DNA of 64,000 bases from Chondrosia reniformis (Eukaryota; Porifera; Demospongiae; Chondrillida; Chondrillidae), in the NCBI GenBank assembly GCA_947172415.1, contig OX359197.1, forward strand, positions 1,674,001-1,738,000, written 5' to 3'. Both the position numbers and the translations under genes were made by a program. The notes beneath the pieces were generated by a model. That model saw only the letters and a program-made list of their open reading frames with translations, ran no database searches and was not told where the DNA came from. Below, one piece after another: positions 15,954-62,576 of this stretch (its first letter is position 1; each line of letters starts with the position of its first letter).

Positions 15954-15960
15954 ATATATG

Positions 15961-16059: not shown

Positions 16060-19000
16060 ATGGATCATTCTGCTATTAATGGAGGTGTACTTGCTCTGTT
16101 GATAGTACTTATTTTACGTAAGTATATGAATTTATAGCCTAAATTTCTTTAATTAGGCCGGTAATCGTAGAATATGTCTCAACTATATATATATAACTGC
16201 AAATAATGCAGGCAATTATAGAGAGAGGGAGACCCTATATATATAGATTATAACTTCATGCATGCATGACTTCAATTATTTTAAGATCTGATCTGAACTG
16301 TACGACTGTAACGTCGTGGGATAAAACGCTTGCTTAAAACATGCTATATTAGTTTTTCCGTATCCTGCACGCGTGTGTTCCTTACTAATAACACCCCACT
16401 CGCAGATACCGTTTTTGTTTCTCTTGCACTGTAAGGAAGAGGGTAATTTGCTATCGTGAAAATAGGCATTATCGATCATGCAGATTTTCACTGTACACTA
16501 GACATATGTATGACATAATGGGGTGAGCCTCTGCGAGAACTTGTGATTTGTGAATGGTGACGGCCCATGCAAGCTTCAATGGAAGTTGTAGCCGTGAGCA
16601 CTGGGTGACAACAAAGCACGTATTGGACAAATCAAATGCGCATGCCTCAGCTTTGGCGTTGACGAAATTACCTGGTATTGGGAGATACTGTGTTTTCACC
16701 ACAAGAAGCAAGTAGTATTTAACACTTATCTGGTATTGGTGTTTTCGCCGCAGGAAGCCACTTATATGGCCTTGTGTCGCCGCAAGAAGCCTCCACGGAT
16801 CGAACCAGTCGAAATCAGCCATGTCGTGATCGTCGGGGCCGCTTCGTGGCCTAAATGGCCGTACATACATATACTGTATACGAGTGTATATTGGGAAATT
16901 TTCGCGTGGACTTTAATTTCACGTTATTTGCGAGCTAACTCGGACTCGCGAAAATTTCTTCCGCCATTTTTATATATATATCAATCAATCAATATCATTA
17001 GAATGCCCATTGGTACTAGGGCACGGATTGTCCCCATGCAGCACTTACAAAAATGCAAAATAAATAATAATAACACGCAAAATAGAGCTAACTGAACCTT
17101 GCATGCCACATACACAAAATAATCGATAAGAGTTCATAGATATACTGAGAAGAAATTTTCGATAAATATTCTAGAGCCTATTACACTTGATCATATGAAT
17201 TATCTAAAATAATAGCTATATATGGTTAAATTATCATGTAACTTAATTTCTGAAATAAAATTTCTTAATTTTTTTATCTGCAGCTCATGATGGAACAAGT
17301 GAGGAAGCAAGCATATTGCATTCCAATGTATAATAAATAATATTTCTATATATGTATATATACAGATTACCTTAGTATATTGTAACTTGCACTGTATCAG
17401 AGAGTACGGCAGTACTCTCTAAGTAGGGATGGCCGAAAAAAAAACATGGCCGCCCTATTCAATGTATTATCAATTAATACCTCATAAATCAACAACGATG
17501 GGATTTTCGGTTGCATTCGAGTGTTTGCAGTCGTTTTTGCATGCTTTTCTGAAACACCAAACATGTTTCGAAGCTCTACAACCTTCGCAAAGTGGTAAAC
17601 CCGAAATAGGCCAATTTCTGAAATTCCTCATTTTTTCTTCGAATTCTTTTTTCAAATGAGCTAGCGCTAACATGCGAACTTACGCAGGTACATACAAATA
17701 CGTACTAAATAGTCATGAATGTTTCCGAACTAGGGAATAGGCTACCCTAGATTTCAATGCGCTCCATCCGAAGCGTGTTACTTTTGCAAGTTCCAAATTT
17801 CGGGCCTCTTCGAACGCCATTTTTTAATTAAGTTTCAAATTCTCTGTATATAAAATAAGTAACTCGAGTTAGTATAATATTTGTGGTACTGCCGCCACCC
17901 GCGATCGAATTTCTTAGTCGCTTTGCAGGTCCTATATACAGTCGTATTCTTAACGATTATGAACCCTTTAATATCCTAAACTGAATGTTAAAGAACGGTA
18001 GAAAACATACTTGACAAATTTGTTATCTTTTCGGACGCCATTTTTTAATTTAGAGCTCTCTACTATAGATCGTCTATTCTGCTACTTTATTTCGAGTTTT
18101 CGCCAAAAAAAACTTTCAAAATAAGGGCAATACAAGTTAAATAAGAACATTCAAAAATTAAGTTAAAAGTAGGGATGGCTCTATAACAGTGACAAACTGA
18201 AACTTAACTATACACATCACTTCTATGCTTGGGCGCATCATGGATATATTAGAAGTATATAGGGTCGATGATATAGAAGTGATGTGTATAAGTCTCAGTA
18301 TGCCACTTCTGCAATGTTAGCCTTATCATATGATCGCTTTCTTGTTTTGTTACTTTTTAGGCATATATATATTATTATATAATATTATATAATATATAAT
18401 ACAATATAATATAAATAATATTATATTGTTTTCATTTGACAATTATGTTGTACGGCTTCATGTTACGGAAAGATATATATGTATATATATATTTATGTAT
18501 TATGCATGTTTAAATACAATCAAGTACTACACAGTGCAATTAGTTACAAATTTATACACGGATGCAAGTGACTCCCAAGATAATCACACTGAGGTATATA
18601 ATATAATACGGATGCAAATGACTCCCAAAAATAATCACAATCAGGTATAATAAACGCTACAGGACTTTAGCCACACTGAAATTCTCAACTTCTGCATACA
18701 GAGTAGTAGTCTCTACAGATCATATAAGGTTAAACGCATGGCCTTCCAATTACCTCTGAAAAAGATGCATCTGCATGCTATTATCAGCAAAAATTCCAGT
18801 CTCATGCAGGGGGTCTCAGTCAATAATCACTGCAGATTTGAGTTGCCTTGAGTGTGAGGTAGGAGTACCATCGGTTACTTGCATGCATTCACATAAACAA
18901 CATGGTTAGACATGATTTAGTAACTTGCACACAAGGGACATTGTTCATGAAATAAATTAAAGGCCTCAGCCTTTATGTCCCTTGTATTATTGTGTATTAT

Positions 19001-22000
19001 ATTATATACCTCAGTGTGATTATCTTGGGAGTCACTTGCATCCGTGTAAAAATTTGTAACTTGCACTGTGTAGTACTTGATTGTATTTAAACATGCTTAA
19101 TATAGCACTATATCTATATATATAATACGGGTTCATACGCAACTATTGTAACACTTAATTTACATCGTTTTTGCAAATGGCGGCGTTCAGGAAGCTTTAG
19201 TTAACGAAGCTTTTCCATCGTTATTTATAAAGTTCAGAACATTTAAGCGTCCTCAATCGTTAGTATTACGAATACATATATTAAATTACAACGATGCGGC
19301 CAAGTAGTTCGAGTTAATTCGGGGGGCTGCAGCCCCACGAGTTTTTACACTCGAAATACTTGTTCTAGATGTGCCAATCACTGTTATAGTGCCATCCCTA
19401 CTTTTAACTTCATTTTTGAAAGTTTTTATTTAACTTGTATATATATGTATATATATATTGAGAATGAAGATACAGTGGAGCACGGATATAACGAACTTCA
19501 AATTGCAGTAAATTTATTTCGTTATAACCGAATTTCGTTATAAAAAGATATATCCATACTCGTCACCGTGAATTATAGATGGAATGACTATAGCTCTAAG
19601 TCGTTTGTTCGTTATTTTGTAGTACATTGACATCAAAATAAATTATAAACGATCGCGTGATTTCGTGTACGTACGATTTTCAAGTTATAGAATGTCATGC
19701 AGGACTGTAACTAAAGAAGTTCGTTAGTGTAGTTTGTACTTTGCAATTTTCAAGCTCCTTCGCATCTTGCTTGATTTCCTTTTCTATGGCTACAATTAAG
19801 ATGTGGTAAGCTGGTAGCTCTTTCGTTATAAACGAATTTTCCATGCCAGATTCGCCCCTAAAATTTCGTTATTAACCGAAGGTTTTATGTTGTTTAAAAC
19901 CGTTTTTTCAAAACGTTTCGTTACAACCGAAATTTCGTTAAATCCGTGTTCGTTATAAACGTGTTCCACTGTATATATATATAGATTTAAAAATTAACTA
20001 TATATATATTAAATATGTACTGTAATATATCTACTCTTTATGTATATTCTACATTCCCCAAAATAAATATGCAGGTATTGACAACAGAGGAAGTGAATTC
20101 TGGTTAGCTGTTCCACCCAACAAAGTAGCAGGAGGTGACTTTAAGCCACTCTTCTATGTGACCACTGATGAGGGTACTCCTGTTCCATTTATTGTGAGAT
20201 TTAAGTTAACTGGTACTCCTTCTTCGCTTATGGCTACTAAGGGAGAAACTACTAAAATTGAAGTACCAGCTGAGCTTAAGATCAATCATGCAAACCTTCT
20301 AGGCCAAGGGAATGATATGTCTATACTCATAAACTCAACAGATGGTAGAAACCTCATTGTCTATGGACACAATGAGGAAACGTATTCTACTGATGCCTTC
20401 CTTGCACTTCCAAAATTTGAAACTAAAACTGGCACTTATGAATACTATGCAATGTCAGTAGGAGACAGTGATCAATTTGTTGGTACCTTGGTTGGCTTTG
20501 TTGTTATTGTTATTAATGAAGATAACACTGATGTTAGAGTTACACCAACACAGAATGTAGTTACATTTTTTGGCACAAATACTTTGATAAATGCTGGAGA
20601 TACAAAGAGAAGAAGGAGAGCTAATATGGGTGAAGTGTTTACCTTTGCTGCTTTTTCAGGAGATCTCACTGGCACAAGGGTCACAGCAGACAAACCAATT
20701 ACATTCCTGACTGGTCATGAATGTGGATTTATTCCAACAGAAAATACAGCTTGTGACATTTTACTTGAACAGATTCCTCCGACTGAGACTTGGGGTTTCC
20801 AGTTTGTATTGACACCACTCACAACTAGAGAAAGCAGTGAATTCAAATTTTTGGCAAGCCAAGATGGAACATCCGTTAAAATATCCTGTAATGATGCTGA
20901 TGGCAATAATGTAATATCAGAATCTCTCTCACTGAATGCTGGAGGATCTGACTTTAAAATTTATCCAAAGACTTATTGGTGTTTTGTAGAATCCAACCGC
21001 CCTATTCTAGTTGTCACAATCTCACTAGGATATACATATGATGAACCTATTACTGAAAGCAATTTAGCTGATCCGTTTATGCTCATGATTCCACCTCTTG
21101 GACAACTTAGCAATGACTACACACTAGTATTTTCTCAAAGTGATGCCATTGGAAGTTTTAACGATGCAATCAACTTTGTGCCTCAGATAAATTTCATTGT
21201 TCCTGCAGCGGATTTTGACAGAGGAGAGCTGATCTTGAACAACGGAGCTGAAGATACTTCTAGTATTAATTTCATTGCTATACATGATTCCTCTGCAGAG
21301 GTTGTGGCTTATGGAGCTCAATTTGTTCCTGATGTTGATCCTACTGCACCTACCAGTCCATTTTCAGCTCAGTTCTCTGGACGTGGAACTACCTTAGGAG
21401 TTCTGGTGTATGCTTGGTTCAGAGAAAATACATATGGATATCCTGGTGGAATGAGAGTTGACTCTATTGCTGGTGAGTCTGGTCAAATTAGGATTTAGCT
21501 TAGTAATGAATTGTCCAAGTTGTTGATTATCTCATTATCAATCCATTAAATTATATTTACACTTAAATCTGTCCAGTTCCAATCTACTGCCCAATAAGTG
21601 AACCACAACCAGTTGGCTCTGAAATATCTGGTGAAATTCTTGTTCCAATTAGTAGAACCGGTGTGGTTGAAGGCGAAGCTTGTGTCCAATTTGAGGTTGT
21701 CAATGGGACAGCTATTGGTGAGTTATTAATTCCCAAACTCTTTTTCTTTTGAAAGGAATATATATATAACTATATACTTGTTAATGTACTAACTCATTGA
21801 TGAATGAATTATCAGGTATGTATTATTATATTTTAATAAAGTTAATATAGACTATAGAGTTGAAGATGACATGTGCTGTTTTGAGGCAGGAGAAAGAACA
21901 ACTGAATGTAGGATTGTGGTGATTGCAGATGGTGATGCTGAGGAAGATGAAACACTTCACTTTAAGATAGTTTCCACTGCAGACAATTGTGTCTGTGATG

Positions 22001-25000
22001 ATAATTTAGTTGTTACAATTATCAAAGATGTTCAACGTGAGTTTGAAAACATTTTAATTATTGTAACACTGGGCCTAGGCTTTTTAATTTTATTTTCCAC
22101 TATAGCTATTATGGTACAGTTTGGAGCAATACGCTACAGTGTTGATGAAGATGCAGGAACAGCAGAATTGGTACTTGTAGCAATTGCCCCAGCTCCAGAT
22201 GGAGGATACAATGTGGATGTATCATTTGTTGACGGCACTGCTGGATGTAAGAATATTCAATAGTTATAGCCAAGGGACAATGACTATTAGCCAATATATA
22301 TAATACAAACTTAAGGCCAAGGTTGAGCCTAGGGCAAGTAATTACATTTCAGCCGAAGTTTGATTTAGGTATATATACCCTGTTACCATGGCATTCGGTC
22401 AGCCCAGGATTGAAATGGTAAAAGGTGAAGGAATGCATGAGAATTGATCCAGTGACTAAAGAAACTGAAGCACCAAAAAAGCAAATATGTTCCGTTCCCA
22501 TCCAAAGCATTCTAAATATTAATCAGCACTACACACTGAACATGGTACAATGTCCACTATTATCAGTTCATTGCCATGGCAATGGGTATAAATAAGTATA
22601 AGCATTTACATCATAAATATTACTATGTATTTATAGTATACTGTACGTTTATTTATCCACAGCTCCTGGAGACTATGATAGCACTGCACAAACGGTCAAC
22701 TTCCCAGCTGGAGCCACTACTGCCACATTATCAGTTCCTATTGTTGATGATGAAGTTTTGGAACATCATGAGACATTTGATGCTAGTCTTGCACTACCTG
22801 ATGGTACTCCATCTCAAGTCAGCCTTGGAAGAAGAGATGAGGCTATGGTAACAATCCTGGACGAAGAGATAGCTGAGGTACATTATGATCCTGCTTCATA
22901 TGAATGGGACGAATCTGTTGGAACTGGATATTTGAACATTGTGTCTAATGTGACTTCTACAGTGGATTACTCAGTAAATACAGTGTTATCCAATGGAACA
23001 GCTTACGGTATATTACCAAATATACAAACAGACCTATCACAATGTATTGGAATAGTTTCAAAATTCTAATTTCTCTTGTTTGTGTTGCAGGTAGTTTAGA
23101 TTTTGTCAATGATGCTGCTTATTATCAAGCTACCTTTGCTGCTGGAAGTAGCTCAGCTCAAGTGGGAGTTGTAATCATTGATGATACAGATATAGAAGAG
23201 GATGAAATGTTTGAAGGAATGCTTGTGTTGGGAGACCTGCATCCAGACCTAGAAGGCAGAGTGGTGATTGGAAGTCCTGAAATAGCTACTATCACTATTG
23301 TAGTTTATGAATCAAAGGATATTACAGTGCAATTTGACCGAACTGAATATTCAGTAGCTGAAAATGGAGGTTTTGTATCGTTGCAACTTATAGCTGACAA
23401 GCCAGCTCTAGAGGGTGGATATAGTGTTATGATATTTTTTGCTGATGTATCTGCCACAGGTTAGATGATATATTATAATACTTAATTGGTGCTAACTTCT
23501 TATCATTAAGGACGTTGGATTAGTCTTCACTTGAATAATGGCCATATCCTAATTGTACATATCCACACACTAATTTGAAAAGCCATCTTCTTTACTCATC
23601 TTATGCTGCTTATGCTGTATACATAAAGTATGTGAAAGAGTGAAACCAACTGTAAAGTATATACGTGCACGTATCAATGTATTGTACAGTATAAAATTTG
23701 CATAAATGATTCTATTTCTAGTTGTGAAGCTCTTATTGATTGACAAATATTTACCTGTTTGTTAAATTTAATTTGTCCATTTACGTGCGTATATGTGCAT
23801 ATGTGAAGATGTTATCTTCAGAACAGAGACAGTAGCCATAGAAGTAGGAGGACTCTTATTGATCATTTTACATGTTTGGTGGATTAAAAAGTGCTAAAAA
23901 GGATGTGTTAGGACCAATTACTCCCAAATAATGTAGCCAAAAGTGGTTATACCTGGTCTAGTTGTGAATAATACATATATACTATTGAACGTGTTCAGGA
24001 CAATTCCAGGTGGATTTACATTTTATCCGGGATGACTGTAAATGTATGTATAATGTATAATCTACATATTGGTAATGGAGAGAAAGAATTGACATTGTTA
24101 ATTGTTAATGATTAGATTAATACTATATGTTCCCAATTTTCTGCATGTATATATTATACGTATATTTGTGATAATATATTAGGATTACAGGACTATGACA
24201 ACATGTCTTTGACAGTCTTTTTTGATGAAGGACAAACAACAGCTACAGCAGATGTTAAAATTGAAGATGACACTATCCTTGAGCGTCTGGAGACATTTAC
24301 TGGACAAGTGTCACTTCCTGAAGGCACTGCAGATTTCATAAAGATAGGACCCAGTGACACAGCCACTATTGATATTACTGATAATGATGCTGTTGAGGTC
24401 AACTTTGATCCTACTATATATTCAGTCAGTGAGAATGATGGAGCAGTTGAACTAATATTAGTTGCCAATGCATCAGCATTTTATGGCTATTCTGTTACTG
24501 TTGACACATTTGATGGAACAGCTAGTAAGTAGCTTCGTAAAGTAGCCTATTATACTGGTATACAGATATTTACCAACTATTAATCAAATTGTACTTGATA
24601 TAATATCTCATTTGTGATGTTTACTTAGTTAATGGCTCTGATTACACTGGTGGATCATTTGAGGTTGAATTTCCTGCTGAGAGTACTACTGCTAGCCTAT
24701 CTGTGCCAATTTTGGATGATATCTTGCTGGAAGGAAATGAATGGTTTGGTGGTCTCCTTAGTGTTAGTGGTGTTGATGGAGTGATGGCTGGACCTGACAA
24801 TATGGCTAATCTCACTATATTAGACAACGAGGGTGCCATTATTGTAGAATTTGAAAATTCAGCTTACAGCTTCAATGAAGATGTAGGAGATGGGATCCTC
24901 ACTCTTGTAGCAAGTGCACCAGCCCCAACTGGAGGATACAGTGTGGACGTGTCATTTGTTGATGGAACTGCTGGATGTAAGCAAAAGCCACCACATCAAG

Positions 25001-28000
25001 TTATCATTAAGTAAAATACATTGTGCCTACCCTAAATACACATTTACATTGCACTCCTCAAGTGGGTGGGGTAAATTCCACAGTCAAATGTGATGACACA
25101 TACACATAATCAAGTTATATTGCAGCATTCTCCAATAATATATATACGCATATTGAAGTTATTTGCTTAATGAAATTTCTCATTTTTTAATCAGCTCCAG
25201 GAGACTACAGTGGTGCAACACAAACAGTTTTCTTCCCCGAAGGGGCTAGATCAATTGATTTTGCTGTACCTATTGTTAATGACAGCCTATTAGAAGGTAA
25301 TGAAAACTTTATGGCTAATATTGAGGACATATCGGAAGCAGCAGCTAATCTGGGAGTTAAAAAAGGAGCCAGAGACTCTGCAGAAGTTATTATCACTGAT
25401 AATGATTCTGTCCAGGTCAACTTCTCTCCAACCATGTATACTGTATCTGAAGATGGAGGATCAGTTGAATTGATGATAGTTGCCAGTGGTCCTGCACCGT
25501 TTAACTACTCTGTGACTGTAGACACATTTGATGGAACAGCTGGTAAGACATACCACAATACTGATTGAAGTACAGTGTATAACAAGCTTCAAGTATATAA
25601 ACCATAAACCTACATAGGCTGTGTGTTGTATATATACAAAATAAATATCCAATATTCACCTGGTAATGCATATTCTTTTATACATATACATAGGTAATGG
25701 TACTGATTACACTGGTGGACCATTTCAGGTTGAATTTCCAGCTGGTAGTACTACTGCTAGCCTAATATTGGACATTTTGGATGATAATCTTCCAGAACTA
25801 GATGAATGGTTTGGTGGTCTTCTTTCTGTTTCTGGTGTCGAGGGAGTGACAAATGGACCTCAATCTCTTGCCAATGTCATTATATCAGATGAAGAAGAAA
25901 TCTTTGTCCAATTTGATAGAGCTGGTTACATCTTTGATGAAGATGTAGGAGATGGGATCCTCAATCTTGTGGCAGATAAACCAGCTCCAGCTGGAGGATA
26001 CAGTGTGGACGTGTCATTTTCTGATGGAACTGCTGGATGTAAGAGTGTATAAATATGAAATGTATAAAGCTATGATTTAACTGCATTATGAGCTCTTCTT
26101 TAAATGTCTATACAGTCTTTTAAAACTTTATTTTTCTATAATTATATAGCTCCAGGAGACTATACAGGCAACACACAGTCAGTGTTTTTTCCAGAAGGTG
26201 ATAGTTCAGCTCAAGTTGCTGTTCCTATCTTCAATGATGATTTTGTGGAAGGTGATGAAACCTTCACAGCTATCATTGATCCTATAGCAGCTGATGGAGT
26301 GAGAAGAGGAGCAAGAAATTCTACTAATGTGATCATCATCGATGATGAATTTATTGAAGTCAACTTTGATCCAACCTCTTATGAAGTGAACGAAGAGGAT
26401 GGTATCGCAACCCTCATATTAGTAGCTGATAGACCATCATCAGAGCCTTATACAGTTAATGTGGTGACATCTGATGGAACTGTTGAAGGTTATATAGGTA
26501 TATTTTGCATATATTATACATATTTGTATACGTATATCAATTGCCATAACAGCTAGTTATAAATATACATACAATTGGTTAATAAATGGAATTACTAGAA
26601 CATTTAACATATATATATATATAGCCCTTTAGGTTGTAATTTTTTATATATCTACGTAGAACTCATTGATTATATTGGTGGGATCTTTTTGGCTAATTTT
26701 TCCGTTGGAGAGACTACCACCACAGTAACAATACCCATCACAGATGATGACATTGGTGAATGCACGGAAGTGGTCATGGCTCAACTAGAGTTTCCTAGTG
26801 GTATACCAACGCCGGCTCCAGCAACTCCAGGTACACCATCGCCATTTTCCTTCTCTCCTAAATATAGAATTGGTTCTAAGGACATGGCAACTATCAAAAT
26901 CAATGATACTGATCGTGAGTTGAAAATATAGGCAGTGATGCAATTAGTATAATGCTATATTATTATATGAAACACTGTTCAGCTTACTATGTTGAGTTTA
27001 AAAGTACATCACAAGTTGTATCTGAAAATGAAGAATCAGCGGAAGTGTGTTTAGTAACAAACAGAGAATGTGTTGATGATTTTCACTATTGACTTGTAAG
27101 ACAAGGAATCAGATGAATTTATGGGTAAAGCAAGTTTGTGTCTACAATCTACGATGATGAAATCATAAGTAAGTCAACTTTGAACCAACTTCTTTTGAAG
27201 TGAACGAAGAGGATGGTACCGCAACCCTCATAATAGTATCTGATAAACCATCATCAGAGCCTTATACAGTTAATGTGGTGGCATTTGATGGAACTGCAGA
27301 AGGTTAAAATTACTATTAGATTATCTGCCATACTACACGCCCTCGGGTCTCGTGACTCCAAAATCCATACACACTGAAGCGCTATGGTGTATGTGTTATA
27401 TATGGCATTGTGAAGCCTTCCAAGCATTTATACACATTTGGTGGGATTCTTTTGACCTATATAAGAACCTAGATCTACTGCAGTTATACACCGGAGTGGG
27501 TCTCTTATTGCAGTTATACACCAGAGTGGGCCTCTTATTGCAGTTATACACCAGAGTGGGCCTCTTATTGCAGTTATACACCAGAGTGGGCCTCTTATTG
27601 CAGTTATACACCGGTTATGGAACTCAGCATCTTAGTGTTGTCCCGGCTATGACGTATATATATATAAGTCAACCGAAACCGGAATATTTGCTGATAATGG
27701 CATGCAGATGCATCATCTTCAGTCTATAACTATACTAAGGTGTGAAAAGGTAATTGGAAGGCTGTGTGTTTAAACTTCTATGATCTGTAGAGACTACTAC
27801 TCTGTATGCAGTTGTGAATTTTAGTGTGGCTAAAGTCTTGTAGCGTTTAATATACCTGATTGTGATTATTTTGGGAGTCTTTGCATCCGTATTGTATTAT
27901 ATACCTCAGTGTGATTATCTTGGGAGTCACTTGCATCCGTGTACAAATTCGTAACTTGCACTGTGTAGTACTTGATTGTAATTAAACATGTACAAGTATA

Positions 28001-31000
28001 TAAAAAACATTTACAAAAATGATGTTAGAAGTAGGAATGGCAGTGTTCAGAACGGATGTGTGTGGATAACTGAGGTCTGACTGTATACGTACGTATATAC
28101 AGTGTTGCAATTCCCAGGCATGTATTATATACTTTTTATGTTTGTTGGCTTAACATGAACATGCTTGTCTCGTTATTTGACTCTGGACGAACATGCATAT
28201 ATGTAAAATGTGGCAAATGTAAAAAATCTACATTTTCTTCAATTAGTACTTGTAACATGGATATACATGTAGTCTGTAGATTCTTTGAAACCAATGGATA
28301 CATTAGACAACCTACACACTCCCTTGCCAAATAAATCAAAATTATGCTGTTTATAGAGAATAATGATAACTATAAAAGTCTGTAATGGAGATTCAGTTTC
28401 TAAGTACGTACGTATGTATATGGTTTTCCACCAAATAAATCTGCTAACAAGCACTAAGGATGGACAGTTCTCTGATGTGCACTTAATTATAGCATTTATG
28501 TAAATATATACTTTTGGAACAAATACAAGTGACTAAGCTTAGTTTTTATATTGACTGGGCATCATTACTCTATGTTTCTCTTTGCAGCAATTATTGTTAA
28601 TTTTGACCGTAGCAGTTACGTTGTCAGTGAAGGAGACACAATCAGTATAACACTTTTTGCAAGTGGTAACTTTTCGATACCATTTAATGTATCACTTGGA
28701 ACATCACAATCACCAGATGACTACAAAATAATGGGAAGTCCCATTCTGTTTACACCTGGCAAAACCTCCTTTTCATTTACGTTGGAAGCATTAGCTGATA
28801 ACATTAAAGAAACAGACGAAACCTATTCCTTAAGCCTATTGCTGAACAACAATGCATGTGGCTTGAATGTTGCATTGGGCAATCAATCCAGTGCTAGTGT
28901 TAGGATTGAGGATCCTACTGGTAAGTAGTTAATTCCTCTGTTTGAAAATATGATATTTTAATTTCAGCACACATATTTAAAACAAACAAGTCCTATTTTA
29001 TACTTACACATACGGATACTGTACTTGTATGCATATACATAATATAACAGTAGTTCATAGAGCATCAGCAACTGATTATACAACACATTTGATGTTTTGA
29101 CCAGGAAGTCTTCTTTAATAATATATACATCATACATACTTACGGATGTACATCCAATTGAAATATAATCAATGGAGATATTATTCCTGACCAACCAATT
29201 GTTTAAAATTTATTTATATCATGTCAAAGCCTTTGCAAGGCTCAGTGCCATTAACTCCCTTTCCATATATATACATATATTCAAGTATTTATGTTTGGTA
29301 AGTCTTCTGACTCCAATGCTTTACTATTAACAATATATTTCATCTATAGTGCTTCAAGTCATGTTTGAAGATGCTATGTACATTGTTCCTGAAGGAGATA
29401 CTCGAACGATTTTAATTAAAGCCAGTGTACCATATGTAGACAGCTTTAATGTTTCACTTATTCACAATGCCTCTGCAGGTAAGATGCCTACTGTGATTAG
29501 GCATATATATACATGAATGATTCTAATGTATGCCTAATTGTTCCACTTTATTTATTCATTTGTGGACAGATCTTCTTGTGGATAATACTGTCACCTTTGA
29601 GCCACTTATGGAAACTGTTAGTGTAGACCTCACAGCCTTAGCTGAAGATGTAAAGGAGTCGACTGAAGAATTTAACCTTAGACTGAGCCTAAGTCCGACA
29701 GCAGGGAGTCTCGGATTGGAGTTGGGAGATCCATCACTAACTATTATAATTATACCTGGCACTAATGAAAGTATGCTAATACATTATCCTTTCTTATCTC
29801 TTTTATCCTAACCGTGATACCATATTACAGGTATTACAGTATTCTTTGAGCCCTCAAAATACTCTGTTTTGGAGGGGGATATTGCTGAAGTGTTTCTTGA
29901 ATCTACACAGGCTGCCAGTGAGGCATATACAATCAGAGTCACCCAATTGGATGGAGGTAACTCTAATAATAATACATCTGCTTCTTAAAAGTTCTTCTGT
30001 TTAATTTGAAGGGTTTTTTACAGAATCGGCATATCATGTAGGAAAATGGTGTATTGTAGATATTTCCTGGGTATTACCTTCTAGGGAGCTAAACCTGGAA
30101 AGCTTTGGATAAAGATACAGGAGTCTTTTCTTTTCTTCTCTTTCTTTTTCTGCTCCACTGGGCCAGACAGCTGTTTCTGGAATTCCACCCTTCATCAGTG
30201 ACCCATGTACAGATTATAATCTAGTGCTTTTAGTTATCTTTCCTTTTTATTTTTATTGATTTTTGTTTTCAATTTAGAGAGAGATATTTTTTTTCACTGC
30301 TCCATTTTACAATGTACCAGTCTATTAGGTTTTTTAATTATTTAAGCATGAAGGTTTAATATATATTATTATCTGTTGTATATATACTACCAGAATCCGA
30401 CTTTGCTATACTCAATGAAAGTGAAGCAACATTTCCAGCAGGGTCTACTTCAGCTAGTATTTTCATCTTAGCCTTTGAGGATAATATTAAAGAGAGAATT
30501 GAAACATATTTTCTTAATATTGAACTGACTCCATCAGCATCTAGCTTGGGTGCAGTGACTGTTAATATCTCTGCAACTCTAGCCATTGATGATAACACAG
30601 AAGGTACATATGCTGCAAATATTCTGTCGTTAATCTGACTTATTTGGATATAAAGTGTTTTGTAACTTTATTCTTTGCTTCATGCACAGATATCCTTGTC
30701 AGCTTTGAGAGACCAATCTACACTGTTGTGGAGGGAGAGTCAATTGAGTTCAAATTGATAGCTGATAAGAACTCCAGTGAAAGTTTTAAAGTTGAAGTTA
30801 TAGCTAGCCAATTAGGAGGTACGTATGTACAGTATTTATGTACTTATAATTTATACGTATGTATGATTTAATCAGATTAACATACAGTACGTACATATGT
30901 ACGTAGTGTGTAATGGATGCAATCTAACACAGCATTTTTCAACATGCTACATGTAACATGTTGAAAAATGCTACAAACATCTAATATTAGAGGAAAAGGC

Positions 31001-49600: not shown

Positions 49601-51379
49601 GCAAATGCGGACAACTTGTCTGTAAAGGCACCCAAAGCGTGCACAAACTGACGGGAGCGAATTGGAATACTCGAAGTTTTGATGAAGATATTGCGATTTT
49701 TTGAAAACAGAAATTATTCCAGATTACAAGTGAGAATGGCGATTCGCTCCCGTAGTCCTGTGAACCCATGCTTGTAGATTTATAATGTCATATTAATATT
49801 CTACACAAACTTATATACTTGTACTAACTTATATAGTATATAATCATATACATACATGTACGTATATATAGAGCAGAGCTGCACTAATTAATGTATATAT
49901 ACCTATGAGCAATTAACTTTAAGCAAGCTTTAAAATTAGTATTAAATTTATAACCATGATATTATGTATTATGTCTGTATATATACATAAATTATGAAGT
50001 AGAAAAGTAGCATTCATGCATGCTCATTCTGTCGCATGGTCTATGTATGCAGTCTGTTTTGAAGGTACTCAGAGATCATTTACTGTGTCTGAGTTAGATG
50101 GACAGTTTTGTATCAATATAACAAGAGTTGCTGATGAAGGTGACCCACTGTCTGTGGGCTATCAAACATTAGCCACTATGGGAATAGGATTTGCTTCACG
50201 TGAGTATTATTATATATAAATGTCATGCACTACAATGAAATCTGACAGAGATGAAGGACAATGGAAAAAACTGTTCCACAAAAGCAAACGCACCACCACC
50301 AACTATTCCATTCACATGTAGGAATCCATAACAATAACTAACTAACTAATTCCTATAAAATGCTGTTGGAAATTTTTAATATTATTTAGCAAATTTTGAC
50401 TATATCCCTGTACCTGCCGGTGGAAGTGGATTTGAAAGACTGCGATTTGAGGATGATAGTGAATCAGAGGAAGTTTGTATAACTATCCTGAATGATACAC
50501 ATGGATGTGAAGGACCTGAAACGTTTAGTATTATACTTGATGCCAATCCAGCTGATAGCAATCCTTGTGGTGATGAGGTTATCATCACAATTACAGATAC
50601 TCGTAAGCTCTGAAAATAACTCATTCCTAATTATTAATACTCTGGAATCGTATTAGATACATTTATGTTAATTCTAATTGTCTGCTTATATTTCATTGCT
50701 TGTAAAAATCCTAATAAATAGAGATTTCAATGCAATGCAATTTGGATATCATGCACATGTGCATGGCTAATTCAAGCAAATTTCATTATTCTAAATAGGT
50801 TTTAATATCACTATTATGTAGATACATAAATGTTGATCATCCAGTCCTTTCTTGTCTGACACCTGTAGCTGTTAACATTCTCTTTGACACAAGAATAGTG
50901 ATCCAAGAGAATGCAGAACGTGTTTCATTTGCTATGAGTAGACAAGCTGGAATCACACATTTGGAATACATCACTATTAGATTATCAGAAAACAGTTCTG
51001 ATCCAAAGTGTGTGGTAAACAGAAGAAGTAAGTTTGTAGGGCTGTTGTGAAATCTTACATCAAATTAGTTAAAGTAAGGAAGTGTATGGACTCAAACAGG
51101 CCAGTGTGAAAGGATATATGAATCTTGTCTTAGGATGTGCAAAAGGAATAAAGTATATACACTTGATTCAAAACAAAGAACAGATAGTTATATTATTTAT
51201 ATATCTGGTCATGATTATCGAGCACAGCAGAAGTGGAAGCGAGGTTTTATGATCCGGTCAGTAGGGAGTCGAATTGAGATTGAGGTGTCAACAAGAATTT
51301 TTTGGGGCCCATTTCCAAATTTTGTGTCAAGTATAGCTAAAGTTGCAGTATTAGTAGTAGTAGTAGTAGTAGTAGTAGT

Positions 51380-51411
<32 letters not shown>

Positions 51412-54400
51412 TATGAATAATGCAATTTGTATCAACTATAAATTCCCAAGTATTATGAACTTAAACAACTAGCTACCTATATTTCTTAATCTATTCTTTT
51501 TGTATTAGGACCTTACACGTTTCAGTATGAATGTAATGATCCTCAGTGTTCCGATGCTGAGATAGGAGGATCAGACACAAGATCTGATCAGTTAGAGTTA
51601 CTTCCTGATAACACGATATCTGATGGTCGTAGAGAGTGTACACTTGTAGCTACTCAAGTCACTGACTGTTTGATTTCCTTTCCACAAGGAAATGTTGTTA
51701 CAATAGTTGTTGAAGATGATGAAGGTAAGTGCAATCCATAATAAACTCTATCTTTGTGTCAGCTTTTGAATTAGTGTTGCTAATACTCAATAAATTAGTC
51801 TTTAATCCAATAAAACATTTATATGTACTTCTCCCTATTTCATTACGATATACATATATTGGTAAGTACAGATGTTAGTGTATAATACTCAATTTTACCG
51901 TACTAAATATCATACACTATAACCTCTGATTAACAGACAAATTAGCTATGGTAGCTTCCATATATCCTTTGCGAAGAGGCTCATTTTTATACTGCCATAT
52001 TCAATCATTTTTATGTACGCATGATGAAGAGTAGGATCTACACCTCGTATATATCATTCTACAAGTTTTTTCTGTATATGTATACGGGACGTACGTACGT
52101 ACATATAGCATACGTATATATGTACTGTATGTACACGTATACAGCATTTAGCTTGTACTAATTACAGTAATGATATTATATAACTAATTGAATCCTAAGT
52201 AAAGGTAGCAATCACATTAGTTGTAACTACTAAACCAGTTTGACACCAATTGTATATATGTGATTAGAATGGAACTGTTCATACAAATATGATATTATAT
52301 TTTTGGAAACACAATTAACAGTCCATGCCAACATATTGAGGACCATAATTGGTTTATTGTATTTGAAACTGAAACAAAGAAATAACCACTTTTGACCCCA
52401 TCCTAAGTATATAACAGATTTATATAGATGAACTTTATATGGATAAAGTTTACATGTGCATACATAGTATATTATTTGAAGGTTTCACCCTTGCGTTGCA
52501 TGCTTTGTTTGAGCATTAAACAGTTACCTAAGTATATACAACTCCACTGTTTTGGTGCATTGTCTAATATTACAATTTATAATTCCTGTTACATTAAATA
52601 GCCATACTAGTGGGTTTTACATCTGACTTTGAGGATATCGAGGAAAATGAGATGCTGAGACTTACAGCTCAGTCAAGTGTACCTGTAACTCTTGAATATT
52701 CTGTCTTTGTTCTACTAAAGGAAGTGAAGGACCAGCCAGCTAAAGGTACGTACATATACTTTTGTGCTTTATTGACTCATACTATTGAAAATGTTTTTAT
52801 TTCTATATTAGCAAATATGGACTTTGTAGATGAGGTTTTAGAGCTGACATTCTTAGCTAATGAAACTATGGCTACTGCAGCTGTGGGGATCATTGATGAT
52901 AATGTTCTGGAAGACCTTGAACAATTTGAGGCTACATTTAACAAAACATTCCATACAGGCGTATATACAATAGCTTTTAATAGTAGAATGGATGTTGTGC
53001 TGATCCAGATTTCTGATGAAGATGGTAAGGAATGATGTTAAAATATATTGTTCAAAGTGCCTGTGTGTGTTTGCATACATACAGGTACGTACATACATAA
53101 GTGTTACATAATTAATATATTGCCATATACCTTCCATTTGATTAATGAAACATTTTTATTGATGTACGTAGAAGTGATTGTTTCCTTCCCAGAAGACCTA
53201 TCTGTGATTGAGGGTAAAAGTCAGTTGAGTAAAGAACTGTCTGCTCAAGGAGAATATGGAGTTCAGTTTTGTATTCAAATTGAAAGCAGAATGAACACAG
53301 ACATAATTGATGCTTTAACAGTTGCTACAGGTAGCTATATATATTGTTAGTTCCAGACCTTTTAAACTCATTTGCTATACATGTATCATGTATTTGAATT
53401 AGTTATATATAGCTGTAAATGTATTTATGAAATAATATATATATATATATAATATGTAGATATTTTACCATTAAATGTGTGCATGAGTTAAATATATATG
53501 TGCATGTATACTTTTATCCTTACCTAACTATATACATGTTGTGTAGCATGTATATATCTTCCAAATATATATAGGTGTTGTCGATTTTGAAGAAAAGAGA
53601 GAAAGAGTCTGTTTTCAACCTAATAATGGTGGAGCCTCAAAACCGTTTAACATTAGAATAGTGAATGATGATATTCCTGAATTAAATGAAACATTTTTTC
53701 TTGAGTTGTTTAACGATGAACGAAATTCTGAAGGAGGGATACTATTTGAAGGCAGAGTTAGGTTTATGTCTTTCAGATCAGATGTACTTATAATAGATGG
53801 TAAATCAAGTTGGTTGTATGGTATATGTAAAATAGTGAATATTATATTAAAAGGTAATTGAATCTGAGCTAGCCTTAACATACTGAAAGCAACATTAAAT
53901 GTATTATTAAATTTGGTTTCCTTCCCTTCTCACTTACATAATTCTGCTATGTATTATATAATAATAAATCCTGTAATGTATTCTATTTATATTATATTAC
54001 TGTTTGTTATGATTAATTACTTGTATCTGGTGAGTAATGATTGAGCTGCATGTGTTAGCTAGAAGGAGTGAAGAACCTTGAACTCTAGTGAAATCGCTAA
54101 CCTACTCTTGTAGTAAGATACTACCACTGAAATAAAACCATTTGCTTGGAAAGGAACAATAAGAGCTGCTGAATGGCCAATAATGTTGTTGCAATTATCA
54201 GAGTGACGCTTTAATTTTTACTATTTTATGTCTAATAATGAATATTTTACATGCCTTTTTTGTACTTCAGATGATGCCCCTTACAAGGTTTTCTTCTCTC
54301 AGAGTGAATATCATGTGGAAGAGTTTTCTGGTGCTTTGGATGTGGAGATAGAAGTTGACAGGGATCACATAGGCACTAATATCACTGTTATGATTGAAGT

Positions 54401-57400
54401 GGTTTCAAAAGAGGGTTCAATGTATGCTTCAGGTTTGTAAAATAACCATATTATAACTGGTATAGACCTACATACATATATAGGCCTGCTGTGTTAAATT
54501 TGGGTTTTGGAAGAATAAGATCAGAGAATCTTAATAGAATAAGGGTTTCTTCTAGCTATATCGAACTTATCTTTCTAGACTCACTAAATTTAAAATGTCT
54601 GACACTCAAGAGACACAATATAACTGAGTCTTTAGACGCTCTAAAAGTCGAAAGATGATCCCTTTCTAAAGATAAGAATCTTTATCCTTAGACCCTATGG
54701 TAGCCATTTTAAGGTAATATAGTAAACTAAAAAATGGGAGAATCTTGCTGAGAAATCAATGAGATACAGATATATATACGTATGTACAGTATATATAACG
54801 TATAAATGTGAGCAAGAGATCTAAATGCCTATATATATACAACTTCCATTTTGAAGAATGTTGGTTTGAATACCTAATTTGTCTTGATCAAGACTGGTAT
54901 GTACATAATGTGCATATGGAACCTGTTGACCAATTGACCAGTAGTAGAATCTTTATTTTTGACTGGAATATTATGCTGTATTTAATCTACACAGTATAAA
55001 TTTCCCCACTTTTTATTCACATGCACTAATTGTTGTTGTTCTGTCAAGCATTATTGCTAATTTGAAAATGTTATATTTACTGAATATTGTCAATTTAATT
55101 GAATGGTTAACTTATTGTTTGCATGTTTTTCTTATATAGGATATATGATATTTGTGTTTCTCTCTAATTGCAGTTAATGGGAAGAAAATAGATGTCTTTT
55201 TACTAAAGAATACTTTTATTATACCAGAGAATGTTAGAAAAATTAATGCTACAATTAATACAGTTCCAGATGATGAAGCTGAACTTGATGAAAAGTTTGA
55301 AGTTATACTAAGTGTCACCAACGAGACTATGTTTACAGAAGTAGACCAAAACAGAAATCAAACGGAAGTTACAATTATTGATGATGGTAATTATTTTAAT
55401 TAATTGAAATTTAACAATTTTGCTAATATTTTCCTATTTAATTTACTCTTTAGATGAGTTGGTAATTGAAGCTGTATTTGAAAGAATCATAGTCGAGGGA
55501 GAACAATCTATTTTAGAAATATCTATGAATATTTTAAGTGATTTTTCAGTACCCTTTTCATTGAGAATTCATTTAATGAATGACTCTGCATTAGGTCAGT
55601 AACTGCACATGTGATTTGTGTTTTATTTTGCTGTGATGGATAGCTGTAAATGAATAGCTAACTGTGTATTATTGTAGCACATTCGTAGGTGTGTTGACTT
55701 TGAGAGAGAGAATATTGTTATATGACTTGATAGTAATATCTGCATGGCTGTTCACTTTAGATGTCGTTTTTCATAGAATATGAAGATTTTCAAATTGGTA
55801 ATACAATTGTTGATGTTTCCTTGGGAACCAAGGAAGCCACATTTCAAATTGAAATTCTTAATGATGATATTCCAGAAAAGTGTAATGAATCATTTATATT
55901 CTCAGTTTTGGAAAGTGGTTCCAGTGGTCTGATGTTTGATTTGACTGAAGCTCAAGGAACAATATCTATTCGTGATAATGAAGGTGAATAAATACATTTA
56001 ATTATAAATTGTTTATACTTACATATGTACTTTTAAGTATTGATAGTCTACACTTCTACTCACAGTACATGTTGCTACAATGTACATGTGTTATCTTTCA
56101 TACATACTGTGTAGCCCCTCTGAATAAGAGGCAGAATAAATCCACAGTCTGACATTTAGTTGGCTTTAGTCTTAAACTATATTTTCATTGTAATAAGTTA
56201 ATCACACTTTTACCATACCTTTTTCTGCTTATAAGTAAAAGCCACATAGCCTTACTTGCTGGTAGATAGGCCACTCATATACAGTGGAATCTCATTATAG
56301 TGAAGCTCAATGGGGACCAAAATTAGTTTCTTATATTGAATATTCATTATATTGAATGTATATAATAGTATATAACTTTTGCTGGGACTAGCAAAGTACT
56401 TCACTATACTGAGACATTCACTATAAGTGATTTTGTAATAATGAGATTCTACTGTATTTCCATTTAAGCCATACTAAATGGTTCCAAAGTCCAAAACAGC
56501 TGTTTATGGCTCAACCATCTTTTGGAAGTGGTGATGGGGAGACTCTGGTTCTCTTTATAGCTCTTTACACTCCATTAGTATGTGTAGTAATTATATTTAA
56601 TTTATCTGTGTATAGTGGTTCACACTGTAACCGATCTCATGTACATGACTCCAGAGGATATAAGGAGTGGTCTAGTAGACATTTATGTCAGCAGAAGTGA
56701 TTGCATTGCTAGGAATTCAACTGTGTTCCTAGCACCAATGTCCAACTCAGCAGTAGGTATGTACACACATACATATGTACATATATTTCTATCCACATGA
56801 AATGCTTGATTAGGTATTTAATATCTATTCCTATAGGGCCTGGGGATTTCCCTGATGAAACCATTAAAGTTTCATTTCCCCAAAATGTCTTCAGCATGTC
56901 AGTTCCAGTTCCCATATCTGATGATATGATTTCAGAACTGGAAGAAACCTTTTTTGTTGTTCTTATCCAAGCTGAGGCTGGACCCTCAGGGTTGGTAGAA
57001 GACTTGATTGGCACTCCAAATGCTACAGAGATTATCATCCAAGACGATGGTACAGTATTTTACTGTTTTTATTTCAACACTATGGTGGACCCTCACTATA
57101 TGTTACCTCTAGAGATAGGCTTACCTTAAATATTGTCAAATGTCATATAATCAAGGTCTCCTGTATATTACTTTAAATCTAGACATGTACAGTTATTCTG
57201 TGTTAAAAGTCACTTTAGTTTTGTATTAATTTCCTTATAAAGTGTAAACATTTAATTATAACTTCCATACACCATATATATGTACATATATAGGTATGTA
57301 GATGTTCACATATGTATTATATACCAAGGTATATTGTAATTCTTCCTTATATATGTGAAAGATAATGAGTTGTTGTACTGTTTAATTTCACTTGTTTTAG

Positions 57401-60400
57401 ATATGCTAATGGTTGGATTTAGTGAACCAATTTTTTCTGTTTCTGAAAATAATGGATCAGTAACTGTAACTGTTGTTACAGATAAGGATTTCTCATTTGA
57501 CTTTACTGTCAATGTCACAGTCAGTCCAGGAACTGCTGAAGGTTTGTATTGTAGTTTTAGACTGTACGTATATAGACGCCTACTTCCTACATAACATACA
57601 GTACTTCTAACATTTCCAGTACAAACCTTTGGAATTCCAACTTGTAACTTTTATAATTCTTACAATGATATAATTGTACCTTTCAGTGACTGATATAGCT
57701 CTTGGGGAGAACATTGTAACATTTACTCCTGGAATGAAAGAAGGTTCTGTTGAAGTATTTCTGTTCGATGATGAAATAGCTGAACAAAGAGAATTTGCAA
57801 ACCTGGAGCTCTCAATTGTAGGTGATCCACCAAGAGACATTGGACTACGCATCAGTAAATCTACAATTAGAATTCTGGATAATGAAAGTAAGTCGATAAT
57901 AGCTATTGATTACATTGGAGTTTTATGTACATACGTATTTATAATTTTTTTACTTTAAATAAACATACTACAATTGATGCATTACAAATTTAAGTAAATA
58001 TCATACATTTGTGTGTTTTCACAATTATTGTATAGTACTTGAAGTTAATTTTGAAAAGGAACAGTATGCAGTAACAGAAGGGCAGTCTATTAATGTTACA
58101 ATTGAAGCCAATGTTGAAGCTAGTATGCCATACTCTGTATCAGTAACCCCAGGGGAAAATGATGGTAAGTGTCATAAGCATTATATTAATTATCTAAGGC
58201 AGATGAAACTCAAGCTAAGGTTAAGTGTTCTGTGGTAATTTTGGTCTGTTCATTAAAAGTTAAATACTCATCTGTATTTGTAATTGAAATGTATTTCATG
58301 TAATTTCATTATCTCTTAATTTGACGTCACTTCCAACTCATAACCTGACACATTTCACAGATTTTCAGTTGGATACTGCAAGTGTACAGTTCCTTCCTGG
58401 AGACACTTCCAAGTCATTCGTATTTACAGCCAAAGAGGATGATATAAAGGAGCTATTAGAGACAGTTACGCTTGTTTTGATTCCCCCAACACCTGATACT
58501 GTCACAGTTACAAAAGGAAACAAAAGTTTAACTGAAGTTACAATTGAAGATGCCACAGGTTTGAACTCCTCAGTGTATATATAAGCAGATCTTGCAAGTC
58601 AGCCTTCACCTTATTGTATATATAGCAAGTTTTTGACGTTATCATTTTCATGTAACAAGTCCTGTATTTTTGTGAAAATAGTCCAACAGAAGTTATATAT
58701 AATAATAGTGCACGTGCTTATGATGATAATCTAACTAAGCATGTGTATACATTAGGCTATAGCCTTTTGGTTACATATACGTACGTATATACGTATATCT
58801 TGAAATATTGAGTTTGTTCTGGTGCTTCTTAATTTAGCTTCATGTACTCTTCCTGGTGGTTCTGTGGTGGAAGATGGGGCAATATTTAAATCTGGAAATC
58901 CCTGCATGCCAGATTGGTAAATAAATATTCTGTAATGTCCCTATTTCCATGTAAGTTTTAAGTGATATATGTCAGTATATACTTTCTCTATAATCCATCA
59001 GTACTTGCAAAAAGGGAGTTGCAACTTGTCCAGTAAGTCAGTTAGCCTTGCTATATTATATATGTAGATATCCTGTTTCTATTAATGCATATATACTGGA
59101 ATTGGTCTGGGTCTTGATTAAGCTAATTCTCATTGCTTGGGCAATTGTAGCTCAGTGGCAGAGCACTAGTGGCCATAACCAGCTGTTCTAGCTGGGTTTG
59201 ATTCCCAGCAATTGCTTCTTTTGTATTCTTGTTGATATTGAGACTGATTATAGTTACTTTTAGTTTGATTACTCATACATATTTGTACATATACACCCAT
59301 TTTACATACGTATTCATAATCTTTCCATATAAGGAAATCACATGCCCTACTTGTGATGCAAGTGCTAAAGTATTGACAGCTCCTGATGGTGAATGTTGTG
59401 ATATTTGTTCCTGTCCGTATAAAGGGAGAGACTTTACACCTGGAGAAACCTTTGCTTTTGGAGATGGGTGTAACACATGGTAAGCCTTCTTTTTACAGTT
59501 CATGATCATCATGTGACCTAGATTAATCCCTCCCACTAATGTCCCTTGAAGAGCACAAAGAGCTAATTGTAATAACTGCAGCAGTCCCCTTAATGGAAAC
59601 TATAGTTTCCCCTTTGCCACTTATAAGATATGGTCAAGCCACAAACATCTGTTTCATCTACATAGTTATGACTCATCAATTATTGCATGTGTTGGAAGTA
59701 TATATTGCATGGTAACGGACACTCAACTAATAAATACACTCACAGGTTAACAAGCCTGCATGTGGTCCTTATGAGTATATTAGGAGACTGCCAAAATGTG
59801 ACTGTATACACTGTACAATGAAAAATAGGGAATTTAAAGATCAGCTTTATAGATCATAAAGTCCCCATGGCCAGACCTATACCTTTTCAACATATATATT
59901 GTACAATTTCTTTGTGTGTGTATATATATAAGGAGAGATGTGTATTTTTATATTGTGTGTAGTAACTGTGCAATGGATGGAAAACGTACTTGTACTCATG
60001 ATAACTGTGGTAAGAATCGTGACCTGTGACTGAACATATATTATACAATTGACCTATATACATTTATATCTTGGTTTTATATATATATACGTATGTATAT
60101 GTACGTATATACATATGTAGCCTGTGTTATAAGAGTATATATATATATATATATATTCAATTTGTTATTTAGTACCTTTGCCAGAGTGTTCACATGATCT
60201 CTGTGTTAACTTGAATGATGAAGCACAGATTAATACTTACTGCTATGTGTAAGTGCATATATAGCTGTACAATGTCTATTTCATTTCCATTCTAGTGAGT
60301 ACTGCACATACACGAATTATATTCAACCATTTTAAATACAAGATCTTACAACATTTAATTAATACAACATACCAATGGATCCATCACTGGTTTTCCCTTG

Positions 60401-61413: not shown

Positions 61414-61538
61414 GGAACGATGCGGCCGGGCTTCCGGGAAATATAAGCGCTCAAGTTCATAAGCAGCAGACTGTAGAATAAAGTACTCGTACAATGTAAC
61501 TGTAATAACTTTGTGTGGCAATTTTCGAAAACTCTAGT
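61414..61538 (+). promoter_or_regulatory. Proximal promoter and leader of gene D
   Basis: GCGGCCGGGCTTCCGGGAAA, TATAAGCGCTC and AGCAGCAGACTGTAGAATAA match gene C nearly base for base. The gene D start lies 885 bp after the gene C stop. Confidence 0.45.
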
Positions 61539-62576
61539 ATGGATCATTCTGCTATTAATGGAGGTGTACTTGCTCTATGCATAGTACTTATTTTACGTAA
61601 GTATATGAGTTTATAGCCTAAATTTCTTAAGGCCGCGTCCGGCAATCGTAGAATATGTCTCAACTAATAATCTGCAATGCAGGCAATTATAAGGAAGGGA
61701 GACCCTATATATATTGATTAACTAGGGGACTTCAATAATTATAAGATCTGATCTGAACTGTAACAACTGTAACAATGAAACTCGTGCATGGGATAAAACG
61801 CTTGCTTAAAACGTACATGCCATATTTTCTGTATCCGTAGACTATATAACTCCTGCACGCGTATACGCTTACAACCTACCTCCTAATATAAGCACCGTGT
61901 TTCCCCTTGCACTGCAAGAAAGAGGGTAATTTGCTGTTTTCAATGCTTTGCTGCCAAAAGAGTATATATAATTGGCTCCATATGTATATTATAATATAAC
62001 TTGCACTTTCACTGGTTGTGACCTCAGCAGAATCATGAGTAAGTACATTTTGGGAACTGTGACGGCAAAATCGGACTCTACCAAAAAACGGACTACCGGG
62101 GGTGCGTTTTAGGTTGAACATTATACATTACATAATCAACCTGGAGGTCTTCTATATATTTGATCAGCTTAATGAAGTAGAGGAGAATATTTAATATGCT
62201 TTTCCCATCATATAGATGTGCAATGACTTTAGGTGTTGCATGCAATTTGACCTTTGAATTGACCTTACACGCTTGATTGTGTGCATGCATGCTTAGGTTT
62301 CTTCAAGCCATGTGAGTGTCTATATGATCCAAAACATTAATGGTCAATTTTAAAAGAAGGCATCATGGCATAAATAGGCGGAGTAACATTAAACAAGAAG
62401 AGAATCACATTCAAGCCATGCCCTCCATGGATAAATATTCTAGAGCCTATTACACTTGATCATATGAATTATCTAAAACAGAAGCTATATAATATGGTTT
62501 CTTCATTTCTTATCTGCAGCTCAAAGTGATGGAACAAGTGAGGAAGCAAGCATTGAGTGGTTGCATGTATTCCAGT
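61539..62576 (+). CDS. First two exons of a fourth family member (gene D), partial
   Basis: Exon 1, 61539-61596, encodes the MDHSAINGGVLAL leader, and exon 2, 62520-62576, encodes SDGTSEEASIEWLHVFQ, both in the same phases as gene C. No further exon is seen up to 64000, so the rest lies outside the window or the copy is a 5' fragment. Intron 1 holds sequence similar to intron 1 of genes B and C (words GGGTAATTTGCT, TGACCTTTGAATTGACCTT). Confidence 0.7.

Follow-up and report, generated by a model that had tools for sequence, protein, structure and literature searches.

Can neighbouring genes that begin with nearly the same exon exchange the bodies behind it, and have they done so? The question is raised by a stretch of 64,000 nucleotides of the genome of the demosponge Chondrosia reniformis (contig OX359197.1, called C9 below, positions 1674001-1738000), further referred to as the window. 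An earlier note, made from the letters alone, had recognised in it three genes, B, C and D, with a common leader exon and different bodies. This shared-leader tandem family is real and bigger than first noted. There are seven tandem genes, A to G, all on the plus strand, with leaders spread across 156 kb; B, C and D begin inside the window. All positions are window coordinates, values below 1 or above 64000 lying outside it; the neighbourhood was read as a single stretch, C9:1620001-1848000, and the genome searched comprised 117,379,552 bases in 15 contigs, C9 being 7,702,672 bases long. The best overall explanation, to which we assign a probability of about 0.6, is a tandem mosaic array of adhesion or recognition receptors and their secreted partners, which recombine and have a common leader. 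The anatomy and the swap history, as read from the sequences, are very probably correct; the adhesion or recognition role as a whole is tentative, and we put it at less than even odds.

The common leader

The leader peptide is MDHSAINGGVLAL[LC]IVLI[LI] in all seven genes. The leaders start at -21565 (A), 16060 (B), 46602 (C), 61539 (D), 87626 (E), 109836 (F) and 133921 (G). A 39-nucleotide leader pattern, allowed up to three mismatches, has seven matches in the genome, all of them in the array, and none when the pattern is reversed; a six-frame genome search with the leader peptide returns the same seven sites. The mobile-promoter idea was rejected, since every leader copy found sits in the array.

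The near-identity claimed for the first exons of B, C and D holds for the whole family, the mean pairwise identity of the leader exon being 0.97 (21 pairs, gaps counted). By the same measure, identity is 0.78 at -60..-1, 0.50 at -120..-61, 0.50 at +59..150 and 0.75 at +151..255. In the first 440 nucleotides of the leader intron it varies from 0.685 to 0.969 among pairs (gaps excluded). The leader looks constrained in these alignments. After 58 nucleotides all seven leaders have a strong donor, ACGTAAGT (GTAAGT), leading to phase 1. This donor was fixed by us in the later gene models, because it is a consensus donor and keeps the hydrophobic core stretch of the peptide. A microexon of 15 or 18 nucleotides is predicted after each leader; it encodes PHDGT in A, B and F and PQSDGT in C, D, E and G.

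The claim of a shared promoter block is true in part. Judging from the alignment, a core upstream block next to the start codon is common to the genes; the promoter as a whole is not uniform. The sequence TATATAAG is located 111-129 nucleotides upstream of the ATG in four of the seven genes (C, E, F and G), D has a one-base variant of it, and A and B are without it. The upstream block of B has an insert at about 15870-15960, found in B only among the seven aligned regions; it has inverted ends and by eye resembles a small mobile element.

Splice phases and module swapping

The bodies had been described as exchangeable with no change of frame, nearly all ectodomain exons being of phase 1-1. Indeed, in gene models with no phase preference set, 98 of 102 ectodomain exons are 1-1 (A 31/31, B 24/25, C 10/11, E 15/17, F 9/9, G 9/9; D not counted), compared to 1 of 32 stalk and seven-transmembrane (7TM) exons of A, B and E. 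Two of the 98, from A and B, fall in a minisatellite and are probably not true exons; later models with a small phase bonus were excluded from these counts. Thus module exchange keeps the frame.

Comparison of the genes shows that swapping has evidently happened and is not just possible. By similarity, G is a chimera with sharp junctions at 135,876 and 142,788/142,791. The segment 135198-135876 is E-like (86%, 699 columns) and ends within a truncated head exon of the type called here CFEG. From 135876 on, the sequence is A/B-like, with 93% identity to A and 94% to B over 2.1 kb. At the second junction G is B-like (96.9%, 479 columns) until 142788 and C-like (94.3%) from 142791. The leader of G is closest to that of F, and its microexon is of the C/D/E type, whereas its head is of the A/B/F type.

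The introns of the receptor genes disagree with each other. Identity of the leader intron is 0.969 for A-B and 0.685-0.783 for A-D, B-D, A-E, B-E and D-E, whereas for the same six pairs the 7TM intron gives 0.897-0.926. For B-D the two values are 0.698 and 0.926, for A-D 0.685 and 0.903, and for A-B 0.969 and 0.897. The difference is significant in all six pairs (Fisher test, p from 6e-7 to 4e-28, with sites taken as independent and identities rounded). As the A-B difference is opposite in sign to those of the other pairs, rate differences alone do not explain it. By leader introns, the genes form the pairs A-B (0.969), C-E (0.927) and F-G (0.915), with D standing apart.

The 3' ends give a similar picture. 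D combines FN3 domains with a 7TM end, A, B and E combine Calx-beta with a 7TM end, and C and G have Calx-beta followed by a secreted end. Upstream of a copy of the secreted end on contig C2 there are FN3 exons, one of them 72% identical to D (20 kb read). Thus both 3' ends seem to occur behind both kinds of body.

Receptor genes

The features of the array in and next to the window are listed in Table 1. The Pfam search covered B (in two pieces), C and G; the 7TM regions of A, D and E were assigned by homology to the exons of B. The predicted proteins have 4196 (A), 3550 (B), 1233 (C), 3475 (D), 2309 (E) and 1417 (G) amino acids.

Table 1. Positions of the predicted features in the array and the grounds for each
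Feature	Position	Strand	Basis
A, 3' part: Ser/Thr stem, HRM-like exons, GAIN, GPS, 7TM, cytoplasmic tail, stop 8217	1..8217	+	gene model; exon alignment to B, D, E, splice sites conserved
SH3 exon upstream of B leader	15245..15676	+	Pfam SH3_1 2e-5, SH3_9 5e-6
Other SH3 copies upstream of leaders	-22290..-21862, 46000-46208, 87033-87228, 109140-109545, 133184-133552		tblastn
B upstream (promoter) block, aligned with A	15954..16059	+	alignment of seven upstream regions, blastn A-B
B leader exon, likely signal peptide MDHSAINGGVLALLIVLIL, phase 0-1	16060..16117	+	donor fixed by us
B microexon PHDGT, phase 1-1	17284..17298	+	gene model
B head exon, IgGFc_binding, phase 1-1	20075..21472	+	Pfam PF17517 1.4e-46
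B Calx-beta array, model exons all phase 1-1	21577..34305	+	13 Calx-beta stretches, E 1.1e-169
B Ser/Thr-rich stem exon	34477..34686	+	gene model
B HRM domains and GAIN region	34970..39816	+	HRM 1.5e-15 (2 stretches); GAIN 0.0041, below Pfam cut-off
B GPS and 7TM exons	40342..42532	+	GPS 3.2e-9, 7tm_2 1.2e-46
B cytoplasmic tail, stop 43130	42634..43130	+	gene model, homology to A exons
C upstream (promoter) block, aligned with E, TATATAAG at -119	46437..46601	+	alignment
C leader exon MDHSAINGGVLALCIVLII	46602..46659	+	pattern and gene model
C microexon PQSDGT, phase 1-1	48980..48997	+	gene model
C head, 4 exons, CFEG type, common to E	50053..51724	+	gene model, comparison with E
C Calx-beta array, model exons all phase 1-1	52602..58558	+	6 Calx-beta stretches, E 7.6e-46
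C VWC-like exons, hand-picked	58838-58916, 59002-59032, 59334-59479, 59963-60009	+	VWC 5.5e-5, Pacifastin_I 4.4e-5, both below Pfam cut-off
C Cys-rich secreted end, stop 60653	60173-60248, 60407-60653	+	gene model; genome relatives of last exon
D upstream (promoter) block, aligned with C	61441..61538	+	alignment
D leader exon MDHSAINGGVLALCIVLIL	61539..61596	+	pattern and gene model
D microexon PQSDGT	62520..62537	+	gene model

B had been read as an IgGFc-like head followed by a Calx-beta array and a 7TM receptor, and the domain matches agree with this order. A third HRM domain of B reaches 1.3e-7 once two stretches are joined by eye. The order of modules in A is the same as in B (IgGFc head, Calx-beta array, HRM/GAIN/GPS/7TM), and its head is 93% identical to that of B. 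E has a CFEG head of the C type, a Calx-beta set of its own and a 7TM end. The body of D lies beyond the window and consists of a Thr-rich repeat (64873-69519), FN3 domains (69971-75262) and the HRM/GAIN/7TM part (76477-86735). The Thr-rich repeat is open over 4.6 kb, with 598 threonines among 1548 residues.

When the stalk and 7TM exons of A were located in B, D and E, 60 of 63 non-terminal transfers kept both AG and GT. One miss is in B and two are in E; the tail exon of D is shortened. The GPS sequence TCET[FV]HLTSFVVLVSL is present in all four receptors (A, B, D and E).

For the head of B, an NCBIfam search gave nothing, and comparison with PDB produced a single weak match to an S-layer lipoprotein (E-value 0.00098 over 64 residues), which was not used. 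A 30-bp minisatellite at 27479-27612 lies between exons of B and is open in frame as LLQLYTRVGL; it occupies the same place in A, B and G and is longer in A and G. The weak spots of the models are the third HRM of B, which is without its first half, the pairs in A and E that are not 1-1, the D exon 80384-80431, gene F past 117.3 kb, and the B exons at 32189 and 39421, picked on score alone. No RNA families were found in the window at the gathering threshold, and four opposite-strand or intergenic open reading frames (ORFs) had no Pfam match.

Secreted genes and the damaged gene F

The reading of C as a Calx-beta gene with a VWC-like secreted end is upheld. Since the VWC match is below the Pfam cut-off, "VWC-like" is a fair word for it. 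The Cys-rich part of the end had no Pfam match of its own, and NCBIfam gave nothing for it. Neither 7tm_2 nor GPS was found by Pfam in C or G. The end exons were selected by hand in C and by likeness to C in G.

The model of G contains an IgGFc head, Calx-beta domains and a C-type secreted end. The four VWC-like exons of C recur in it at 98-100% identity. The whole end has the same splice sites in G as in C, five exons being 97-100% identical and the last one having an indel. Relatives of the last exon of C, 75-93% identical, were located at 12 other places (C2, one; C3, five; C5, one; C9:4.26-4.34 Mb, five), and some of these are listed with a stop inside the match. Because the same end with the same splice sites is found in G and relatives of its last exon at 12 places, the end of C is unlikely to be an assembly fragment. 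Downstream of G, the region 151218-158400 may be a leaderless remnant or an eighth receptor gene; it has CFEG exons with 81-90% identity and HRM, GAIN/GPS and 7TM exons with 45-90% identity.

Gene F has an IgGFc head and Calx-beta domains. GAIN and 7TM exons were not found in order in it, just an orphan tail exon and inverted fragments of the tail and of TM7 (121566-121969). In the region 117600-132600 there are also ORFs at 119004-119399 and 125214-125373 with no Pfam match; the latter is repeated at -41841.

Coding constraint

The ratio of nonsynonymous to synonymous substitution rates (dN/dS) is 0.36-0.58 for the IgGFc heads (6 pairs), 0.53 for the CFEG head (C-E), 0.24-0.50 for GPS and 7TM (6 pairs), 0.30-0.42 for two early Calx-beta-like exons (3 pairs) and 0.42 for the last end exon (C-G). 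By these values, the receptor core and the heads are under apparent constraint.

Known systems

By predicted domain content, A, B, D and E are adhesion G-protein-coupled receptors (GPCRs), and C and G are their secreted relatives. The assignment uses the 7tm_2 match of B, the homologues of its exons in A, D and E, where the splice sites are conserved, the GPS match, and the HLT motif in four of four receptors; the GAIN match is below the cut-off. No 7TM was found in C and G, and downstream of the end of G there is just the separate, divergent remnant described above. The order HRM-GAIN-GPS-7TM, the HL-T cleavage motif and the modular ectodomains are the same as in adhesion GPCRs (class B2). 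The array differs from them in the IgGFc_binding and Calx-beta ectodomain, the shared leader and the sister genes with secreted ends.

The best matches of the 7TM region, in a comparison to solved chains only and with no tree, are ADGRL3 and ADGRD1 (1e-41). ADGRV1 (VLGR1) is a known adhesion GPCR with a Calx-beta array. It resembles the genes described here in having this array on an adhesion GPCR, whereas they differ by HRM, the IgGFc head and a distant 7TM. Membership in the ADGRV subfamily was rejected on the 7TM, as ADGRV1 scores 44.5 bits (1.1e-10) against 146 for ADGRL3. Calx-beta domains in adhesion GPCRs have been dated before the split of animals and choanoflagellates (PMC12716839).

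The earlier note knew of no described family with this exact combination. Its parts are of known kinds: in Amphimedon, 40 adhesion GPCRs are reported, at least eight of them with HRM, in a paper whose main text contains neither "Calx" nor "IgG" (PMC4302439). For Halichondria panicea, the legend of the figure on GPS-containing GPCRs names IgGFc-binding, Calx-beta and GAIN among the receptor domains, and thus similar architectures may have been drawn before (PMC8242945). That repertoire consists of transcripts only, and the section on the receptor figure describes no gene array, leader or secreted counterpart. None of the titles listed by the searches of the open-access literature describes the array itself, which does not prove that it is absent from print. 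What is known, then, are the kinds of modules and the HRM adhesion GPCRs of sponges; what sets this locus apart is the IgGFc_binding and Calx-beta ectodomain, the shared-leader array and the secreted sister genes.

Discussion

The mosaic array most probably arose as follows. A 5' cassette of upstream block, signal-peptide exon and microexon would have been duplicated repeatedly, giving seven mosaic genes. Phase-1 ectodomain modules would be exchanged among neighbours with no change of frame, heads and ends being remade by recombination, and two alternative 3' cassettes would be swapped as well, either HRM-GAIN-GPS-7TM (A, B, D and E) or the VWC-like and Cys-rich end (C and G). Each gene is presumably driven by its own promoter, and the leader would direct every product of the array to the secretory pathway. 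Outside the cell, the long heads may bind a target, that is, other cells, matrix or microbes. In A, B, D and E, binding or pulling could bare the tethered agonist that follows the HL-T cleavage motif, and a signal would result. C and G, secreted and with head types also present in the receptors, may be soluble ligands, linkers or decoys.

Several observations weigh against this explanation. If unconstrained, the gene finder took an earlier and weaker donor, GTGTAC, in all seven leaders, resulting in a 25-nucleotide exon. The leader was judged by eye, from its hydrophobic stretch, to be a likely signal peptide. The promoter of A and B is unlike that of C-G. The gene finder bars in-frame stops, and thus the lack of stops in the models of A, B, C, D, E and G is in part built in; this rule does not bear on the single IgGFc head exon, whose frame stays open for 462-467 codons in four of four copies. 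As F has no ordered receptor exons and contains inverted fragments, not every leader heads a working gene. In places dN/dS is near or above 1: 0.49-1.20 in one Calx-beta exon (6 pairs), 0.31-1.23 in two HRM exons (6 pairs), 0.42-0.97 in the tail (10 pairs) and 1.09, on 5 changes, in five exons of the VWC end (C-G). For several of these parts this may reflect little test power or relaxation. As to the recognition role, in a graft study of another sponge, cell-adhesion and aggregation-factor genes are given as not significantly enriched (PMC5450542).

The alternative that survives best, though we consider it rather unlikely, is an ordinary lineage-specific expansion of adhesion GPCRs that act as microbial pattern receptors or matrix sensors, the leader and the mosaics being by-products of duplication and gene conversion with no role in self-recognition. 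Sponge GPCR genes are reported to shift expression under microbial elicitors (PMC6208332; PMC11229196). Simple segmental duplication is marked by an SH3-encoding exon, a putative marker of the duplication unit, which by tblastn precedes six of the seven leaders (all except D); it is intact before A and B and decayed before C, E, F and G. Moreover, other chromosomes also contain these 7TM, IgGFc, Calx-beta and secreted-end modules, making this array one of several. However, ordinary expansion alone, although compatible with secreted forms whose head types recur in receptors of the same array, leaves them unexplained.

The same 7TM (84-91%) or secreted end (75-93%) occurs without the leader of the array at C2:7.69-7.92, C7:7.08-7.10, C1:6.39-6.52, C3:6.26-6.33 and C9:4.26-4.34 Mb. 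By similarity, these places are likely further arrays.

Another possibility, a quite improbable one, is that Chondrosia reniformis has its aggregation factor locus in this array. Sponge aggregation factors reportedly combine Calx-beta, VWD and Wreath domains in a shuffled tandem cluster. Calx-beta arrays, tandem clustering and domain shuffling in a demosponge are indeed common to both. On the other hand, VWD was not found by Pfam in C, the B ectodomain or G, and none of the 77 genome matches listed is in the array; four members end in 7TM receptors, and the secreted end is VWC-like. The array was not assigned to the aggregation factors because VWD was not found in it. A gene about 4 Mb away on the same chromosome, at C9:5.658-5.667 Mb (L028, 1347-9305 of C9:5657501-5667500), has an IgGFc head, Calx-beta, a VWD match above the cut-off and another region towards the C terminus. 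Head identity to B is 39%, and 10 of its 12 predicted exons are 1-1. It is a candidate aggregation-factor-like gene. Separately, C4:1.49-1.59 Mb contains 37 VWD domains among the matches listed, all on one strand, and may be a large repeated VWD gene or an array.

About as improbable is protocadherin-like choice or intergenic splicing within one complex locus, by which a leader would be joined to another gene's body and the repertoire widened at the RNA level. Such joins would keep the frame, given the phases of the ectodomain exons, and the microexon types are mixed; however, no gene lacks a leader and a microexon of its own, separate 3' ends are present in A, B, C, D, E and G, and there is no constant region common to all. 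It is very improbable that C and G are receptor genes cut short or split in the assembly, a view for which the damage in F and the lack of a sign of constraint in the five VWC-end exons, on 5 changes, might speak. Against it are the end exons common to both genes, with conserved splice sites, the 12 places with relatives of the last exon, the promoter and leader of D that follow directly downstream of C (the leader 0.9 kb after its stop), and the quality value (QV) of 69.8 of the published assembly (PMC12181767).

Within the explanation by a mosaic array of receptors and secreted partners, a more specific version can be proposed, improbable as it is on present sequence evidence. The array would be a linked receptor-ligand recognition locus, where aggregation-factor-like ectodomains (IgGFc head and Calx-beta) are placed on signalling adhesion GPCRs and neighbours with the same heads are secreted, recombination renewing matched and mismatched pairs under one leader. 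Sponge aggregation factors hold cells together, are said to work via transmembrane receptors and in demosponges are tied to allorecognition (PMC8066720). If this version were true, the array would hold the missing cell-surface receptors by which sponge cells read aggregation-factor-like molecules. Receptor and secreted forms with common head types and a common leader in one array, together with a VWD gene of the same head family about 4 Mb away, make these genes concrete candidates for such receptors. The array is also a clear record of recognition-type genes remade via swaps of whole phase-1 modules between neighbours.

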